Positions 1,254 through 24,065 of a stretch of 35,161 nt of DNA are shown here, in pieces (position 1 is the first letter of the stretch; each line of letters begins with the position of its first letter). The position numbers and the translations under genes are program-made. The DNA lies in NCBI GenBank assembly GCA_902775485.1, contig CACYMJ010000002.1, positions 112,031-147,191 of the forward strand, read 5' to 3'. Source of the stretch: an uncultured Lachnospiraceae bacterium. Its GTDB lineage: Bacteria; Bacillota; Clostridia; Lachnospirales; Lachnospiraceae. Below the pieces are notes generated by a model, which saw only the letters and a program-made list of their open reading frames with translations, made no database searches and was not told the DNA's origin.

Positions 1254-2615
1254 TCAAGCATTTTCGGTATTTTCGGCGGAAACGTTCTCATATGTTTTTA
1301 CGACGGTATCATATGATCTCTTCAAAATGATACGGATCCTGGTACCAAGTTCTTCTCTCGAAGTGATCTCAAAATGACCGCCGTGTTTGTCTATTATCCA
1401 TTTCGCTATCGACAGTCCCAGTCCGGTACCTCCGATCGATCTCGCTTCATCCGAGCGATAAAATCTCTCAAACATATGCTCAACATCTTTCTCGCTCATT
1501 CCCATTCCGGTATCTTGAACCTGGATGTATATATCGTTTCCCGGCAATATCCCTACACCCAGAAGAATCTCGTCCTTCTCATTTGTGTATTTTGCAGCAT
1601 TGTCCACAAGTATGCGTACAGCCTGCTTTAACATGCCCTCATCCGCCATCGTAAAGACATGTTCTTCAGGAAATGAATACCTGTATATATGCTGCTCATC
1701 GATCATAAGGGATTCTTCGTAAACAGACTGCATCATCTCACACAGATCGACATTCTCCCTGTTTATGACCGTCCTTCCGGCATCACCTCTTGCAAGGAAC
1801 AGGAGCTGTTCGACCAGATGCTTCATATGCGCCGATTCGTTCTGAATGGCAGTGATCGACTCATCGAGAACCTTCTCGTCCTCACGTCCCCATCTGGCCA
1901 GCATGTTCGCATATCCTTCTATTACGGCTATGGGAGTACGCAGTTCATGTGATGCATCATTTACAAAACGAGCCTGCTGTCTGTTGCTTTCCCTTATACG
2001 TGTAAGAAGACTGTTCATGGCGCGCTCTATACCGCGAAGATCCTCGTCCCCGAATGAAAGCTTTGCCTCATCGGTCGGTTCAAGGCTTGTGATCTTCTCT
2101 TCTATCAAATGATATTTATCCTCTGACAGATCGATCCTCGAGATCTCCTCGGCACGCTCAGCGATCTCATCAAGAGGTGCCAGTACTCTCCTGATCCTGC
2201 GCAGTTGTCCCGAATATGACAAAAGATCAATGAAAAGTTCCAGTGCAAAAAGCACGGATGTGAAGCTAAGTATAAGAGCTGCCGGTACAAAGACCAATTC
2301 ATCTATGATCAGCGCACCCGTTGATTTTGCTGCAACTGTATAGCGTAGCGTTCTTAGAAGCTTATCTACCTTCTCAGGTGTGTTTATCGGGCCTATAAAC
2401 GGAGAGACCGTAACACTGCGGTTTCTCTCAAAAAACGACACATCGGGAGCAGCCATATACTCCCTTGCCGCCAGCCAAACGGCAAACATTATAAGTGCAA
2501 GAAAAAAGCAGTGCCGAAAATGCATGCCGATCTTCATACGGACACGCTGTCCCGCGAGACGCCGGCTTATCGAAGAGACACGTCCCCTTACGGAATTATT
2601 CTGATTTGATGACAT
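1254..2615 (-). CDS. Membrane sensor histidine kinase (HisKA/HATPase_c)
   Basis: Numbering from the upstream GTG at 2624, a membrane segment lies near 37-52, an external loop near 53-107 and a second membrane segment near 108-136. A HAMP-like linker leads to the H-box ASHELRTP with phospho-acceptor His226. The N-box VDNAAKYT (Asn342), G1 box DTGMGM (371-376) and G2 box GGTGLGLSI (398-406) form the ATP lid and pocket. ATG 2615 is preferred because AGAGGTG precedes it by 6 nt. It overlaps the response regulator stop by 20 nt, so the two are translationally coupled. The kinase should phosphorylate that regulator. The extracellular loop is short and its signal is unknown. Confidence 0.92.
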   Translation of the reverse strand: MSSNQNNSVRGRVSSISRRLAGQRVRMKIGMHFRHCFFLALIMFAVWLAAREYMAAPDVSFFERNRSVTVSPFIGPINTPEKVDKLLRTLRYTVAAKSTGALIIDELVFVPAALILSFTSVLFALELFIDLLSYSGQLRRIRRVLAPLDEIAERAEEISRIDLSEDKYHLIEEKITSLEPTDEAKLSFGDEDLRGIERAMNSLLTRIRESNRQQARFVNDASHELRTPIAVIEGYANMLARWGREDEKVLDESITAIQNESAHMKHLVEQLLFLARGDAGRTVINRENVDLCEMMQSVYEESLMIDEQHIYRYSFPEEHVFTMADEGMLKQAVRILVDNAAKYTNEKDEILLGVGILPGNDIYIQVQDTGMGMSEKDVEHMFERFYRSDEARSIGGTGLGLSIAKWIIDKHGGHFEITSREELGTRIRIILKRSYDTVVKTYENVSAENTENA

Positions 2616-19705: not shown

Positions 19706-19867
19706 TCACTTACCGGTCGTCATTTCTCCAAAATCGGTATCCATCGCGATCGAACTGCATAGCAGCCCTATTGCGGCCTTAAATGCCGCAAGCATTACGT
19801 TAGCGGCGATCCCGATGATGCTGGTTTTGACTATTATCTTTTCTCTCGAATAACCGTTCCCGTTCAT
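19706..19867 (-). pseudogene. Truncated cation diffusion facilitator (CDF) transporter, N-terminus only
   Basis: A 53-codon frame opens at an ATG that overlaps the regulator stop by one base (TGATG). Its sequence (SREKIIVKTSIIGIAANVML, then AAFKAAIGLLCSSIA) is the N-terminus and first membrane helix of CDF metal exporters of Clostridia. There the next residues are normally an Asp-bearing VLDAVNNLSDA helix. Here it instead reads MDTDFGEMTTGK and stops. The rest of the transporter (about 300 residues) is absent; mntP begins immediately. It looks like a deletion remnant. A short functional peptide is possible but has no support. Confidence 0.7.
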
Positions 19868-20301
19868 CATGCTTCATCAAGGAACATATACAACAGTCTG
19901 TATAACTGCTCTGCGTCCTTCTTGTTGAGGACCGGACCTTTTTTGCCGAGTTCCAGAGGTATATCCTTGCACTTTTCCTTAAGCTCGTTACCCTTTTCTG
20001 TGACGGAAACTATCGTAACCCTTTCATCTTCCTTCGAACGCTGTCTGGTGACGTAACCTTCCTTCTCAAGATTTTTAAGAAGAGGTGTGAGCGTTCCGGC
20101 ATCCAGATGAAGAATGCTGCCAAGCTGTCCGACATTTACGCTTTCCTTTTCCCACAGTACCATAAAAACGATATACTGTGTATATGTGAGTCCGAGCGGT
20201 TTAAGATAGGGCGTATATGCGTTCACTATCTTTCTTCCGCATGCATACATCGGAAAACACAACTGGTTTTTGAGTAAAAGCTGTTCGTATTCCTGTGCCA
20301 T
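19867..20301 (-). CDS. MarR-family regulator, OhrR-like (peroxide-sensing)
   Basis: 144 residues, winged-helix MarR fold. The N-terminus NQLCFPMYACGRKI places Cys15 exactly where OhrR repressors carry their reactive cysteine, followed by the Tyr residues that contact it (YTPYL, LTYTQY). Cys21 is a second cysteine that could form a disulfide. The recognition helix region is VGQLGSILHLDAGTLTPLLK and the wing is RQRSKEDERVT. OhrR represses peroxidase genes until oxidised by organic hydroperoxide. The gene follows gpx by 37 nt and probably autoregulates through the 20927-20955 promoter. AGGAGG lies 14 nt before the ATG, unusually far; a CTG at 20313 is a less likely start. Confidence 0.85.
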   Translation of the reverse strand: MAQEYEQLLLKNQLCFPMYACGRKIVNAYTPYLKPLGLTYTQYIVFMVLWEKESVNVGQLGSILHLDAGTLTPLLKNLEKEGYVTRQRSKEDERVTIVSVTEKGNELKEKCKDIPLELGKKGPVLNKKDAEQLYRLLYMFLDEA

Positions 20302-20338: not shown

Positions 20339-20881
20339 TTATAACAGACTCTCAACACATTCGGCCACTTTTTCCATCTTCTCGGTAGGCTCAAATCTGG
20401 CAATAACGTTTCCCGACCTGTCAACAACAAACTTGGTAAAGTTCCATTTGATCTCGGGATTGTTCTTGTAATCCTTGTCTATCTTTGCGAGCATCGCACT
20501 CATTGCAAATGCTTTGGGACCTTTGCCGAAACCTTCGAAACCCTTCTGCTCCTTCAGGTATTTGAACAGAGGGATCGCATTCTCCCCGTTAACGTCTGAC
20601 TTCTTCATCTGAGGGAACTGCGTATTGTACTTAAGCGAACAGAATTCGTGTATCTCTTCATCGGTTCCGGGTGTCTGGCCCGCAAACTGGTTGCAGGGAA
20701 CGTCCACAACCTCAAATCCTCTGTCGTGATACTTCTCATACATGTCTTCGATATCCTTGTACTGGGGAGTGAATCCGCATCCGGTAGCGGTATTTACCAC
20801 AAGTACCACCTTACCTTCGTAATCCTTCATTGATATCTCTTCGCCCGCTGCATTTACTACACTCTGATCATAAAATCCCAT
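20339..20881 (-). CDS. Glutathione peroxidase family thiol peroxidase (Cys type)
   Basis: 180 residues, thioredoxin fold. The catalytic tetrad of the family is present: peroxidatic Cys35 in NTATGCGFTPQ, Gln69 in FAGQT, and Trp146/Asn147 in KWNFTKF. Cys81 in CSLKYNTQFP is positioned as the resolving cysteine of thioredoxin-dependent GPx enzymes, so it likely reduces hydroperoxides with thioredoxin rather than glutathione. The active site codon is TGC, so it is not a selenoprotein. AGGAGG stands 8 nt upstream. It is the first gene of a leftward unit with the OhrR-like regulator, the CDF stub and mntP. Confidence 0.93.
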   Translation of the reverse strand: MGFYDQSVVNAAGEEISMKDYEGKVVLVVNTATGCGFTPQYKDIEDMYEKYHDRGFEVVDVPCNQFAGQTPGTDEEIHEFCSLKYNTQFPQMKKSDVNGENAIPLFKYLKEQKGFEGFGKGPKAFAMSAMLAKIDKDYKNNPEIKWNFTKFVVDRSGNVIARFEPTEKMEKVAECVESLL

Positions 20882-20926
20882 GACTTATACCTCCTTTAAA
20901 ATAGATTGTTATTTATCTTTGTTCAT

Positions 20927-20955
20927 ATTATATTTTATCCAATATATTTTGTCAA
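20927..20955 (-). promoter_or_regulatory. Sigma-A promoter of gpx with palindromic operator in the spacer
   Basis: On the minus strand TTGACA (20950-20955), 17 nt, TATAAT (20927-20932), a full consensus. The 18-bp palindrome TATATTnnATnnAATATA (20929-20946) fills the spacer and overlaps the -10. The same arrangement recurs at 23314-23342 with 27/29 identity. Confidence 0.8.
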
Positions 20956-20976
20956 CATCATTTTTTGTTTTCTCAT

Positions 20977-20996
20977 AAAACCGCAAAGGTTTACGG
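20977..20996 (-). terminator. Weak terminator of the AlkZ-related gene
   Basis: On the minus strand CCGTAAA and TTTGCGG (20981-20996) can pair around the stop codon with a tiny loop, followed by TTTT (20977-20980). The stem is short, so it is only a possible terminator. Confidence 0.35.
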
Positions 20997-21752
20997 CCTT
21001 TTGCCGATCATCTTCGTTATGGCCGGATCATCGGCGCCGGGGAACATATCCTTAATGCGCCCCGTTATCCTGTCATAACTTACCGCAGGGCTTTCATCAT
21101 ACGCTTTGGTCACAGCCTCATATCCCCATACGGCTTCCGGAGGGAGCATGACCGAAACAGGCATGCCGTACTCTTCGCCGCGTTTATTCGTACGTCTGTG
21201 AAAATCGGTTATCACAAGATACGTCTGCATCTGAAGACCGGTGACGATCCCGGGATAATTTTTCAGTCCGCCCTTTCCGAATCCGGCCTTTTTCTTAAGT
21301 TCGGTAGACAGTATCTGATCATCGGGAAACGTGACATCGCCGTCCTCATCCCTTCCGGTGAGCATATCCATGATCTTCTTTTCCCTCTGACCGGCCAGGC
21401 CGTCTTCCCAGCGGGCATCAAAATCATATCCGCCTCTTCTGTAATTACAAAAGTACGGGAGCCACTCGAGACTTATGAATCCTGCCTTCTGATCGAAGAA
21501 CTTGCCGTATGCCACCTTATGGCTTGCCGCGATGATCTCTCGCCATTCCCACGGATCCTCCTGCCTTATACCTGTCCACCAGTAGTCCGCACAAACGTGT
21601 TCCTCCGCGGAAAACCCCTCGACCGGATTGGCAAACAACGGCAGAAACCCCACTTCGTTGATCCAGTTGACAAGTTCCTGCCATGTCCTGATCCTGTACG
21701 GATCATCCGCGTCAAGTCCTTTCATGATCCATATTCCGTCTTCAACCGCCAT
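20991..21752 (-). CDS. AlkZ-related protein (function unproven)
   Basis: 253 residues, no signal peptide or membrane helix. The sequence is rich in Trp and Tyr (YWWTGIRQEDPWEWREIIAA, then ISLEWLPYFCNYRRGGYDFD). I associate this pattern with the AlkZ-related proteins of Clostridia, distant relatives of the AlkZ/YcaQ winged-helix DNA glycosylases. The C-terminal half (LQMQTYLVITDFHRRTNKRG) is predicted helical. I cannot point to the QxQ catalytic motif of true AlkZ, so glycosylase activity is uncertain. AGGAAGG stands 7 nt before the ATG. It lies 36 nt after flavodoxin on the same strand, within the redox island. Confidence 0.55.
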   Translation of the reverse strand: MAVEDGIWIMKGLDADDPYRIRTWQELVNWINEVGFLPLFANPVEGFSAEEHVCADYWWTGIRQEDPWEWREIIAASHKVAYGKFFDQKAGFISLEWLPYFCNYRRGGYDFDARWEDGLAGQREKKIMDMLTGRDEDGDVTFPDDQILSTELKKKAGFGKGGLKNYPGIVTGLQMQTYLVITDFHRRTNKRGEEYGMPVSVMLPPEAVWGYEAVTKAYDESPAVSYDRITGRIKDMFPGADDPAITKMIGKRP

Positions 21753-21788
21753 ATATATACCTTCCTGCCATCTTTTCCTTTAACCGTA

Positions 21789-22226
21789 TCAGATATCGGA
21801 TGCGGATTTTACAAGTTTTGCGTCCACCGAAAGGGCACCCTTAAGTGACGGAGCCAATTTCTCGGCCGTCTTACCGATACCGCTTCCGCCCGATGTTGCA
21901 AATGCGTGTACGGTCTTGTTGCTCCAGTCATACGATGCGGCAAACGTATGGATGACTCTCGGGGCCTGTCCGTACCAGATCGGGAATCCTATATATACAT
22001 TATCGTATTCGCCAAAATTTTCAATCCTTCCCTCCACGGGAACATCCTTACCGCCGATCTGCTCTCGGTTACATCTTGAGACCGGATTGATATAATTGAT
22101 ATCCGATTTCGTATACGGCTCCTTCGGAACTATCTCAAAAACGTCTGCTCCGATCTTTAGTGCATACTCCCGGGCCACCTTTGCCGTTGTGCCCTGTGCG
22201 CTGAAAAATGCTACAAGTGTTTTCAT
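21789..22226 (-). CDS. Flavodoxin
   Basis: 145 residues. The FMN phosphate loop FFSAQGTTAKVA lies at residues 8-19. GFPIWYGQAPRV carries the Trp and Tyr that flank the isoalloxazine, and ATSGGSGIGKT is the second flavin loop. The length and motifs fit the Flavodoxin_4 group, small FMN electron carriers often found with nitroreductases and aldo/keto reductases in anaerobes. GGAGG is 7 nt upstream. It could supply electrons to the nitroreductase or to other reductases of the window (inference). Confidence 0.88.
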   Translation of the reverse strand: MKTLVAFFSAQGTTAKVAREYALKIGADVFEIVPKEPYTKSDINYINPVSRCNREQIGGKDVPVEGRIENFGEYDNVYIGFPIWYGQAPRVIHTFAASYDWSNKTVHAFATSGGSGIGKTAEKLAPSLKGALSVDAKLVKSASDI

Positions 22227-22264
22227 AATTTACCTCCGTTTCATTGATCCGTTTAAAATCATAT

Positions 22265-22384
22265 CTATGCGCTGATCGCGCCCTTTATCAGCTGCTCGAC
22301 CAGCTCGCGTTTTTCATACAATACGCATCCGCCGTCATGATCATCCTTTAAGATATCACCGCCCTGCAGCTTCTTTCTGACAGC
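22265..22384 (-). pseudogene. C-terminal gene fragment of unknown family
   Basis: Between nitroreductase and flavodoxin, a minus-strand frame of 39 codons reads KKLQGGDILKDDHDGGCVLY, then EKRELVEQLIKGAISA and a TAG stop. Its codon usage resembles real genes, but it has no start codon. An in-frame TGA precedes it, and the adjacent frame continues plausibly upstream, as if a frameshift had occurred. I do not recognise the family. It is probably the tail of a deleted gene. Confidence 0.3.
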
Positions 22385-22449
22385 TCATTTGCATGGCAAT
22401 ACATCCTTATGGTATCTTCATATCATTTACAGGCATCATAATTATGTGG

Positions 22450-23259
22450 TCAGTGCATACTTACACTTGCAACATACTCGGCATCATCCGGTATTTCCAG
22501 GCCCGGATCGTTAACATTAACATCCGCCTTGATTCCCTTTTCCTCAAGTCCCGACATGAAGTGGCATATCGCGATACCTACGTCTATCTTCTGCAGATCT
22601 CCTGTTGCATCACTTACGTATCCATTATCCTTCTTTTCATAGAAATGGTAAATACCGTCTGCAAGTATGATCCTCCATGGCTGTTTGTTCACCGCCGAAG
22701 GTGCCCATCTTACCATTTCAAGAATATCCTTCATTTCCTCATCCGCTTCGAGAGGCCGGCCCCATGCACCGTCAAAGAAGAGCTTTTCCGCCGGAATACG
22801 GCTATCGGCACCGATCCCCTTTCTCATCATCGTCTCTTTGAGGGATCTCTTCTTCGCAGGATATCCGAGGGGACTGATGCACGGCATCATGCTGTCCTGC
22901 GTAAGTCCTGCCGCGCGTTCGAACAGATCTCGCTTCATCGTTCCTCCGATCCAGACCGTACCTATCCCAAGCTTCCATGCATACAATACAAGCTTCTCAA
23001 ACGAATAACCGAATGCCACATCCGCATAAGGCTTCTTCTCCACGATACCTGCCACATACAGCTGCTCACCGGAAAGGACCGGACTTGAAAGTCCGTATTC
23101 CTTCGCATCAAGAAGTTTGAATCTGACGGGGATATCGAACGGATTCGGAATATCCCTGATATATTCTTCGACTGCATTACGGTCCTCTTCACTCAGCGGT
23201 CTTTGTTCAAATGAACGCACGCTTTTTCTTCCCTTTACTGTTTCCAACAGATTACCCAT
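22450..23259 (-). CDS. Nitroreductase family protein (TM1586-like)
   Basis: 269 residues from ATG 23259 (AAGGAG 7 nt upstream; the ATG at 23277 would swallow that site). It begins LLETVKGRKSVRSFEQRPLS, the RxS/RxF FMN-binding signature of nitroreductases, and continues with LVLYAWKLGIGTVWIGGTM and MVRWAPSAVNKQPWRI. The last is the second FMN-binding segment, typical of the single-chain TM nitroreductase family. It reduces nitro or quinone-type compounds with NAD(P)H. It is the first gene of its unit, and its promoter (23314-23342) is nearly identical to that of gpx. Confidence 0.88.
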   Translation of the reverse strand: MGNLLETVKGRKSVRSFEQRPLSEEDRNAVEEYIRDIPNPFDIPVRFKLLDAKEYGLSSPVLSGEQLYVAGIVEKKPYADVAFGYSFEKLVLYAWKLGIGTVWIGGTMKRDLFERAAGLTQDSMMPCISPLGYPAKKRSLKETMMRKGIGADSRIPAEKLFFDGAWGRPLEADEEMKDILEMVRWAPSAVNKQPWRIILADGIYHFYEKKDNGYVSDATGDLQKIDVGIAICHFMSGLEEKGIKADVNVNDPGLEIPDDAEYVASVSMH

Positions 23260-23313
23260 ATCATATCTCCTTTTCATTCGATATTAACGTAATGACTTTT
23301 TACCTTTTGTCAC

Positions 23314-23342
23314 ATTATATTTTATGCAATATATTCTGTCAA
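23314..23342 (-). promoter_or_regulatory. Sigma-A promoter of the nitroreductase gene with palindromic operator
   Basis: On the minus strand TTGACA (23337-23342), 17 nt, TATAAT (23314-23319). The palindrome TATATTnnATnnAATATA occupies 23316-23333, matching the gpx site in sequence and in position relative to -35/-10. Confidence 0.8.
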
Positions 23343-23357
23343 GGATATTTTCTTTCC

Positions 23358-23387
23358 TTGACAGGGTATCCGGCGGCTCAATATAAT
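23358..23387 (+). promoter_or_regulatory. Sigma-A promoter of the YczE/YitT-like gene
   Basis: TTGACA (23358-23363), an 18-nt spacer and TATAAT (23382-23387), 31 nt before the ATG at 23418. It starts 15 nt from the -35 of the divergent nitroreductase promoter, so regulators bound there could affect both. Confidence 0.75.
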
Positions 23388-23417
23388 ATCACAAAAGTTT
23401 TTGACAGGAGAACAACC

Positions 23418-24065
23418 ATGAAAAGAGATGATCTCGGAAAACGTATAGCAATGTCACTTTTCGGCGTGATCATATGTGCGATAAGCGTCGGTATATTCAA
23501 GATCGCTGCACTCGGAGTCGATCCGTTCCAGTCATTTATGGCAGGCCTTGATGCCGTTGTTCCCATAAAGTTCGGAACACTGTATGTTATAACAAATGCC
23601 GTACTTCTGCTGTTTGCTCTTGTATTTGACAGACACTATATCGGCATTGCGACATTCATAAATCTGTTCCTTCTCGGCTACATCACACAGTTTACATATG
23701 AATATCTTCAGAGTGTTATCGTCGATCCGTCGATGGCGGTCCGTATCATCTGCCTTGTGACCGGTGTTGTCATCATATGCTTCGGATCCGCGTTTTACAT
23801 GACCGCAGATCTCGGTGTTTCGACCTACGATGCGATAGCGCTTATCATTTGTAACACATGGAAAAAAGGGAAGTTTCAGTATGTAAGGATCATCACGGAT
23901 CTCATATGCGTGACAGCAGGATGTGTGCTGTTTGTCATCTCCGGCGGCAGCTTTTCGCAGATTCCCACAATAGCAGGGATCGGAACGATAATCACCGCTT
24001 TCTTCATGGGACCGCTCATAGAGTTCTTTAATGTTCACATAGCAAGGCCGCTGTTAAACAGATGA
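23418..24065 (+). CDS. YczE/YyaS/YitT-like integral membrane protein
   Basis: 215 residues, about five or six membrane helices. The conserved block around IFKIAALGVDPFQSFMAGLD and its repeat (MTADLGVSTYDAIALI) are typical of the YczE/YitT-like family, whose transport or scaffold role is unknown. CAGGAG stands 7 nt upstream of the ATG at 23418. The frame is open further upstream, but that stretch covers the divergent promoters and has no ribosome binding site. The 3' end overlaps the convergent tcdA gene by 12 nt. Confidence 0.85.
   Translation: MKRDDLGKRIAMSLFGVIICAISVGIFKIAALGVDPFQSFMAGLDAVVPIKFGTLYVITNAVLLLFALVFDRHYIGIATFINLFLLGYITQFTYEYLQSVIVDPSMAVRIICLVTGVVIICFGSAFYMTADLGVSTYDAIALIICNTWKKGKFQYVRIITDLICVTAGCVLFVISGGSFSQIPTIAGIGTIITAFFMGPLIEFFNVHIARPLLNR

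Follow-up and report, generated by a model that had tools for sequence, protein, structure and literature searches.

How do two neighbouring transcription units, one headed by a glutathione peroxidase gene (gpx) and the other by a nitroreductase gene, come to carry almost the same promoter? The question is raised by a stretch of 35,161 nucleotides from an uncultured Lachnospiraceae bacterium (contig CACYMJ010000002.1), here called the window, on whose minus strand the two units lie in tandem, probably as operons to judge from gene order and strand. Each promoter holds an 18-bp palindrome, and unit 1 also encodes an OhrR-like MarR protein. With a probability of roughly 0.85, we consider both sites to be operators of this protein, which would be an autoregulated thiol-switch repressor acting on a new operator.

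The 29-mers at 20927-20955 and 23314-23342 are identical at 27/29 positions, as the first-pass annotation had reported, and they are the sole such pair: scanning the window for direct pairs with a spacing above 29 bp and for inverted pairs gave no second pair of 29-mers with at least 27 matches. The likeness continues in register for 14 bp downstream (37/43 identical). The flanks of this 43-bp unit are dissimilar, with 20/60 identity upstream and 20/60 downstream, which agrees with the earlier reading of the neighbourhood and rules out a duplicated gene region. Each site consists of a perfect TTGACA-N17-TATAAT with the palindrome (TATATTGGATAAAATATA or TATATTGCATAAAATATA) within the spacer and its right arm extending into the -10; the palindrome thus stands between consensus hexamers as first described, with the correction that both promoters are on the minus strand. 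In unit 1 the promoter-operator spans 20913..20955 (minus strand), with TTGACA at 20955-20950, the inner palindrome TATATTTTATCCAATATA at 20929..20946 (no strand assigned), TATAAT at 20932-20927 and a probable downstream half-site CAAAGATAA ending at 20913 (minus strand). In unit 2 it spans 23300..23342 (minus strand), with TTGACA at 23342-23337, the inner palindrome TATATTTTATGCAATATA at 23316..23333 (again without strand), TATAAT at 23319-23314 and the probable half-site CAAAAGGTAA ending at 23300 (minus strand).

The pattern TATATTnnATnnAATATA occurs exactly twice in the window, where 0.21 matches with up to two mismatches would be expected and 4/100 shuffles reach two. In the 2.33-Mb draft genome there are likewise exactly two copies, both of them the window promoters, so that the exact sites are found inside promoters and not at random positions. 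Allowing up to two mismatches gives 25 places in the genome versus 24 for the reversed pattern, and two-mismatch matches are therefore without meaning; chance is ruled out for the exact sites, but not for these looser ones. A third genomic site with one mismatch (contig C9) was rejected, as it reads as coding and by eye shows no promoter hexamers. The combined promoter-plus-palindrome pattern gives the two exact matches and six others at two or three mismatches, the lone two-mismatch match being the second site read backwards.

Conservation of the site was assessed in 80 loci picked by MarR protein similarity alone (the best 80 of 227 confirmed), over 1.5 kb before marR or less at contig ends. 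The consensus TAYATTKNNNNMAATATA is present at 0-1 mismatch upstream of marR in 74/80 loci versus 0/400 Markov shuffles, a count with some circularity because these loci also served to refine the consensus. Taking the arms in their window form, 68/80 loci show a match at 0-1 mismatch at any place on the plus strand. A promoter with at most one mismatch was identified in 75/80 loci, all except L016, L020, L021, L025 and L073, where the 1.5 kb held none. Among these 75, the spacer is 17 bp in 72, a left arm no more than one mismatch away from TATATT is present in 66 and one no more than two away in 74, and 64 have AAA at positions 7-9 after the -10. In 46 loci 500-760 nt separate the promoter from the downstream marR (gpx being the next gene in 37 of them) and in 24 fewer than 130 nt; in five it is placed elsewhere. 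The part that is constant across relatives is TAYATT-N6-AATATA, so the central AT of the palindrome does not belong to it. Four loci in Treponema records (L083, L084, L091, L092) have both regulator and operator, which could be explained by horizontal transfer or by misbinning of metagenome contigs.

The extent of the conserved unit was derived from 158 distinct consensus promoters in the fetched loci, limited to 17-bp spacers and without those near locus ends. The left arm shows 0-1 mismatch in 110 (the operator promoters), two in 12 and three to six in 36. As this split was made by the left arm, left-arm differences are no evidence, and it is the right arm, the downstream element and the gene classes that count. 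AA at positions 21-22, the part of the right arm outside the -10, occurs in 107/110 operator promoters versus 8/36 of the others, and the downstream AAA at 35-37 in 94/110, in 8/12 of the middle group and in 4/36 of the others. Counted from the first base of the -35, the operator promoters are conserved up to position 42, a unit of about 43 bp from the -35 to about +8 that includes a probable extra half-site. The downstream element resembles the half-site repeated at 15 bp: in a plain ranking of direct-repeat offsets from 6 to 30, made without a significance test, offset 15 scores highest (0.166), followed by 17 (0.119). The downstream half-site is canonical in L273 and L281, two of 14 upstream regions inspected, which read TATRTTTGA-N15-TCAAATATA. 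A further place of binding close to the start point is thereby suggested. Half-sites of TG and GC type are found in mixed pairs and were therefore treated as interchangeable. Two further ideas were set aside: compensatory pairing of core bases is weak as proof of a dimer site (dyad complementarity 0.65 versus 0.49 expected at the centre, 0.39 versus 0.26 adjacent), and a fully symmetric 36-bp operator including the -35 is partly seen and is not claimed. On the conservation described here, the twin site is very probably a real operator.

What stands behind the operator was surveyed in 37 genomes of the genus and in the fetched loci; the counts mix genus genomes with the 80 loci, some genomes possibly being in both, with identical 79-bp segments merged and gene families assigned from representatives. 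Nine gene classes account for 104/110 operator promoters, while three precede unrelated open reading frames (ORFs) and three have no ORF. The main classes are gpx (49), marR (34), radical-SAM (7) and Flavodoxin_3 (4), and the minor ones nitroreductase (3, one of them the window's), Flavodoxin_4 (3), glutamate-cysteine ligase (2), AlkZ-related (1) and a Lip_C match (1). A site upstream of both gpx and nitroreductase genes, for which a search in related genomes had been proposed, is thus present, and the occurrence in 74 protein-selected loci together with several gene classes behind the same site supports the earlier description as a conserved regulatory unit. By eye, L288 has a single operator followed by flavodoxin, nitroreductase and marR, and L293 one followed by radical-SAM and nitroreductase. 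Glutamate-cysteine ligases stand directly behind the operator at L227:56-2677 (minus strand, 873 amino acids) and L231:1699-2973 (minus strand, 424 amino acids), suggesting that thiol synthesis is part of the regulon in some species.

The window MarR protein matches the Pfam MarR model above its cut-off (4.9e-16), with SarA/Rot as the best Pfam model (8.2e-23). Its nearest solved relative in the PDB is B. subtilis OhrR (1z91/1z9c, E 3e-33), and its best NCBIfam model is an OhrR one, reached at 151.9 bits, below the cut-off of 200. Cys15, Tyr29 and Tyr40, the two tyrosines having a role in OhrR sensing, are invariant in 87/87 proteins with the operator described here (class A) and in 16/16 with classical OhrR boxes (classes B and b). 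An ohr (OsmC-type) gene was absent from the eight window proteins and ten regulon representatives that were scanned, a search that did not extend to the remainder of the genome.

From the palindrome, its register within the promoter, its conservation, the recurring gene set, the link to one regulator lineage and the conserved Cys and Tyr residues, we infer a repressor, not an activator. The reduced MarR dimer would bind TAYATT-N6-AATATA between the consensus -35 and -10 and, the right arm being common to operator and -10, would sterically exclude RNA polymerase from a near-ideal promoter. The half-site YMAAAGATAA, 15 bp farther downstream at about the presumed start point, would probably serve a second dimer or an additional contact. 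Oxidation of Cys15 would release MarR from the DNA and derepress gpx-marR and the nitroreductase-flavodoxin-AlkZ-related unit together, with marR resetting itself. Given the glutathione peroxidase and the sensor residues, an organic or lipid hydroperoxide is the most likely inducer, but electrophile or disulfide stress would also be in keeping with the nitroreductase, flavodoxin and glutamate-cysteine ligase genes.

The signal is where another explanation survives best: it is possible, if rather unlikely, that the MarR protein binds these sites and senses hypochlorite, an electrophile or quinone, reactive sulfur or a fatty acid, or that it acts as an activator. The targets, among them a nitroreductase, flavodoxins and radical-SAM and lipase-like proteins in place of the classical ohr, and a cysteine set unlike that of relatives with the classical box (Cys111 instead of Cys121) point in this direction, while the invariance of Cys15, Tyr29 and Tyr40 argues for peroxide sensing and an operator spanning both promoter hexamers, as repressor sites do, argues for repression.

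The assignment to the OhrR-like MarR protein, the obvious candidate of the first-pass annotation, is supported in sequence comparisons by autoregulatory placement, co-occurrence and the protein tree. In the genus, the site at 0-1 mismatch is present in 24/24 genomes with a close MarR (at least 73% identity) versus 2/13 without (p = 9e-8). Sites away from marR operons, counted by hand, occur in 13/24 versus 2/13 genomes (p = 0.024), or in 12/24 when a contig-edge site in G165 is left out (p = 0.040). In the family (397 genomes) a scan at two mismatches proved too loose, matching at least 101/150 genomes and mixing in unrelated promoters, among them a separate class before PadR-like/DUF1700-like genes, and the exact pattern was used instead. 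It occurs in 8/13 genomes with a MarR of at least 65% identity, a cut chosen after the list was seen and with the window's genome among the eight, versus 6/384 others (p = 3e-10); four of these six have a MarR of 52-59% identity (G242, G280, G370, G390). Of the exact family sites, by our reading, 17/20 precede regulon classes or a related membrane protein, the exceptions being those in G085 and G370 and one in G390.

The protein tree relates the regulator lineage to the type of operator. It has 124 rows and was built on few columns, with rough supports and a midpoint root. L315 was dropped for want of a protein, L288 and L296 were fetched for their exact sites and L294 and L295 as close MarRs. 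A further 40 rows came from the family MarR list, mostly its upper part with some skipped, and G325, G320 and G342 were added as close MarRs; for G280, G370 and G342 the exact site was already known when rows were chosen. All 87 class-A operators fall on one side of the tree (99 rows) and none on the other (25 rows), and the branch between the sides has a support of 91/82. The 25 rows comprise seven classical boxes at 0-1 mismatch, eight at two mismatches and ten unassigned rows. Seven clade B relatives, 54-58% identical to the window MarR, carry TACAATTNAATTGTA at no more than one mismatch upstream. In Markov shuffles of 80 upstream regions TACAATTNAATTGTA was reached at two mismatches in 5/400 and never more closely, so class b is the weaker label. 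The presence of TACAATTNAATTGTA in these seven relatives on the other side of the tree supports the earlier suggestion that the window's core, being different from the Bacillus OhrR box, may represent a new specificity.

Several observations weigh against this assignment. Much of the co-occurrence in the genus is the marR promoter itself. G085 and G268, which have the exact site, yield no MarR at 1e-40, the site in G085 preceding an unrelated ORF; G158 and G169 (94% and 89% complete) carry sites with no MarR found at 1e-15; and in G320 (L280) the closest match in the 1.5 kb before a close marR has three mismatches. On the tree, the support of 91/82 falls below the program's mark, the A rows are interspersed with 11 unassigned rows and one of class b, and the label A needs ten changes, at least seven of them forced by well-supported branches, if unassigned rows are counted as lacking the operator. 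The four genomes with sites and without a close MarR would fit another regulator (PerR, Rex, Fur or an unlinked MarR) for which the MarR gene is merely a target. Measured against regulator consensuses, the mean mismatches to the operator promoters are 4.95 for PerR, 8.98 for Fur, 5.78 for Rex and 3.76 for LexA, and the distances to the other promoters are much alike (5.33, 8.50, 5.86 and 3.25, respectively). As a change of operator type also coincides with changes in the MarR lineage and in MarR residues 58 and 68, we regard control by such a regulator as improbable. Least probable is that the arms merely reflect an unusual core-promoter type with a spacer preference, for despite the overlap of the right arm with the -10, the AT-rich surroundings and the perfect hexamers, the 158 promoters fall into two left-arm groups of which the smaller also lacks the right-arm AA and the downstream AAA, so that the ordinary AT-rich promoters envisaged in the first-pass annotation do not account for the site, which moreover tracks one regulator lineage and one gene set.

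If the OhrR-like MarR protein is the regulator, the residues that change with the operator are of interest. Position 58 is G in 85/87 class-A rows versus K in 13/16 B/b rows, and position 68 is A in 80/87 versus S in 15/16; further near-fixed differences between class A and B/b are at 59 (Q versus E), 65 (H versus Y/F) and 96 (T versus L). For B. subtilis OhrR, PMC4027180 lists V57, K58, D67, R77, R86, E93 and R94 as positions of conserved DNA-binding residues, and places S68 where that paper's own protein may contact a base. Position 58 is thus one of the DNA contacts and 68 may well be another, and both change with the operator type. The second cysteine differs as well, with Cys111 in 81/87 class-A rows and Cys121 in 16/16 B/b rows. 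C. violaceum OhrR is described as a two-cysteine type with Cys21 and Cys126 (PMC3469484). By analogy, clade B would appear to be a sensor of this two-cysteine type, and in clade A the partner cysteine would have moved or be missing. In L272, L273 and L276 (57-59% identity) a core resembling the OhrR box (two mismatches) overlaps or adjoins the new half-sites, forms that might allow the course of a specificity switch to be traced. We tentatively propose, at somewhat less than even odds, that a Lachnospiraceae OhrR-like branch switched its operator from TACAATTNAATTGTA to TATATT-N6-AATATA, together with K58G, S68A and a shift of the second cysteine from position 121 to 111. In this way the branch would have set up and insulated a thiol/peroxide regulon of gpx, glutamate-cysteine ligase, nitroreductase, flavodoxins and the radical-SAM protein, which would have passed into rumen Treponema as well, operator and regulator together.

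The kind of system, a thiol-switch MarR repressor, is known, as is control of gpx by an OhrR-like protein, from P. aeruginosa OspR (PMC4999210). The OhrR boxes published in the papers cited here are TACAATTNAATTGTA and AATT-N-AATT variants (PMC6034001, PMC4999210, PMC3469484). Neither TACAATTNAATTGTA nor the box AATTCAA-N-TTGAATT proposed for OspR (PMC4999210) occurs within two mismatches in any of the 110 operator promoters, and within 1.5 kb upstream in the 80 loci the best match to TACAATTNAATTGTA has 3-6 mismatches throughout. The B. subtilis OhrR/ohrA system (1z9c) contains the closest solved relative and shares the Cys15 sensor and an inverted-repeat operator; it differs in its box TACAATTNAATTGTA (PMC6034001), in K58, a listed DNA contact that is G58 here (PMC4027180), and in the recognition-helix S68, which is A68 here. 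OspR is alike in controlling a glutathione peroxidase, with a footprint over the gpx promoter from +12 to -56 (PMC4999210), and unlike in its box. C. violaceum OhrR is a thiol-based MarR repressor of its own gene with sites overlapping -10 and -35, whereas its candidate operators are ATAGTGCACTAT or AATT-like repeats and its target is ohrA (PMC3469484). E. faecium AsrR, an OspR/OhrR-like oxidative-stress MarR, binds its own and the ohr promoter; in contrast to the window protein it has cysteines at 11 and 61, is linked to ohr, and its repeat is called AT-rich (PMC3410868). The clade B OhrR-like proteins of the Lachnospiraceae belong to the same protein group and bacterial family and share Cys15, in contrast to their TACAATTNAATTGTA-like boxes and to K58, S68 and Cys121 in place of the G58, A68 and Cys111 of class A. 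The palindrome strings had no match in the open-access literature, and this operator, its clade link and its gene set are absent from that literature among the matches listed.

For strict gut anaerobes, the operator would define a peroxide/thiol regulon that can be searched for, and it gives a lead on what partners without an assigned function, such as the radical-SAM protein, may do. Two operator words, a tree separating them and few residues to swap, with possible intermediate operator forms besides, would also make the system a natural experiment in the change of DNA specificity within a repressor family.

The first gene of unit 1 is gpx (20339..20881, minus strand), a member of the glutathione peroxidase family (Pfam GSHPx 1.9e-37) that by eye is of the cysteine type, followed by the OhrR-like MarR regulator (19867..20301, minus strand) with Cys15, Cys21 and Cys111 and with Tyr29 and Tyr40. 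Unit 2, on the same strand, begins with a nitroreductase of the TM1586 type (22450..23277, minus strand; Pfam TM1586_NiRdase 5.2e-36), whose true start is likely at 23259, since the ORF start at 23277 precedes the AAGGAG ribosome-binding sequence. It also contains a flavodoxin (Flavodoxin_4; 21789..22226, minus strand) and an AlkZ-related protein (20991..21752, minus strand). Every unit 2 gene has relatives placed first behind the operator elsewhere: the nitroreductase in L218 and L088, the flavodoxin in L232, L234 and L239, and the AlkZ-related protein in L226.

The divergent ORF at 23418-24065 encodes a membrane protein with no Pfam match, YczE-like by eye, and is preceded by a consensus promoter TTGACA-N18-TATAAT at 23358-23395 (plus strand). 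The right part of this promoter, CTCAATATAATATCACAAAAG, resembles the right half of the operator with the downstream element; the left arm is absent. In two genomes, at L264 and L267, genes that by eye are thioredoxin reductase-like and thioredoxin-like stand before the OhrR-like marR; upstream, the palindrome is matched at best with five and four mismatches, respectively. In L003 (contig C9 of the window's genome), at about 1320-2552 (minus strand), a Cys/Met-type pyridoxal phosphate enzyme-like gene, named by eye, has an apparent frameshift near 1578, its two frames continuing each other. A separate promoter class of the family, TTGACAnnnTATATTATACGAyATATAAT, precedes PadR-like/DUF1700-like genes (names by eye) in six loci, around position 1501 (L110, L111, L115, L116, L117, L123), and is possibly an autoregulatory PadR operator.

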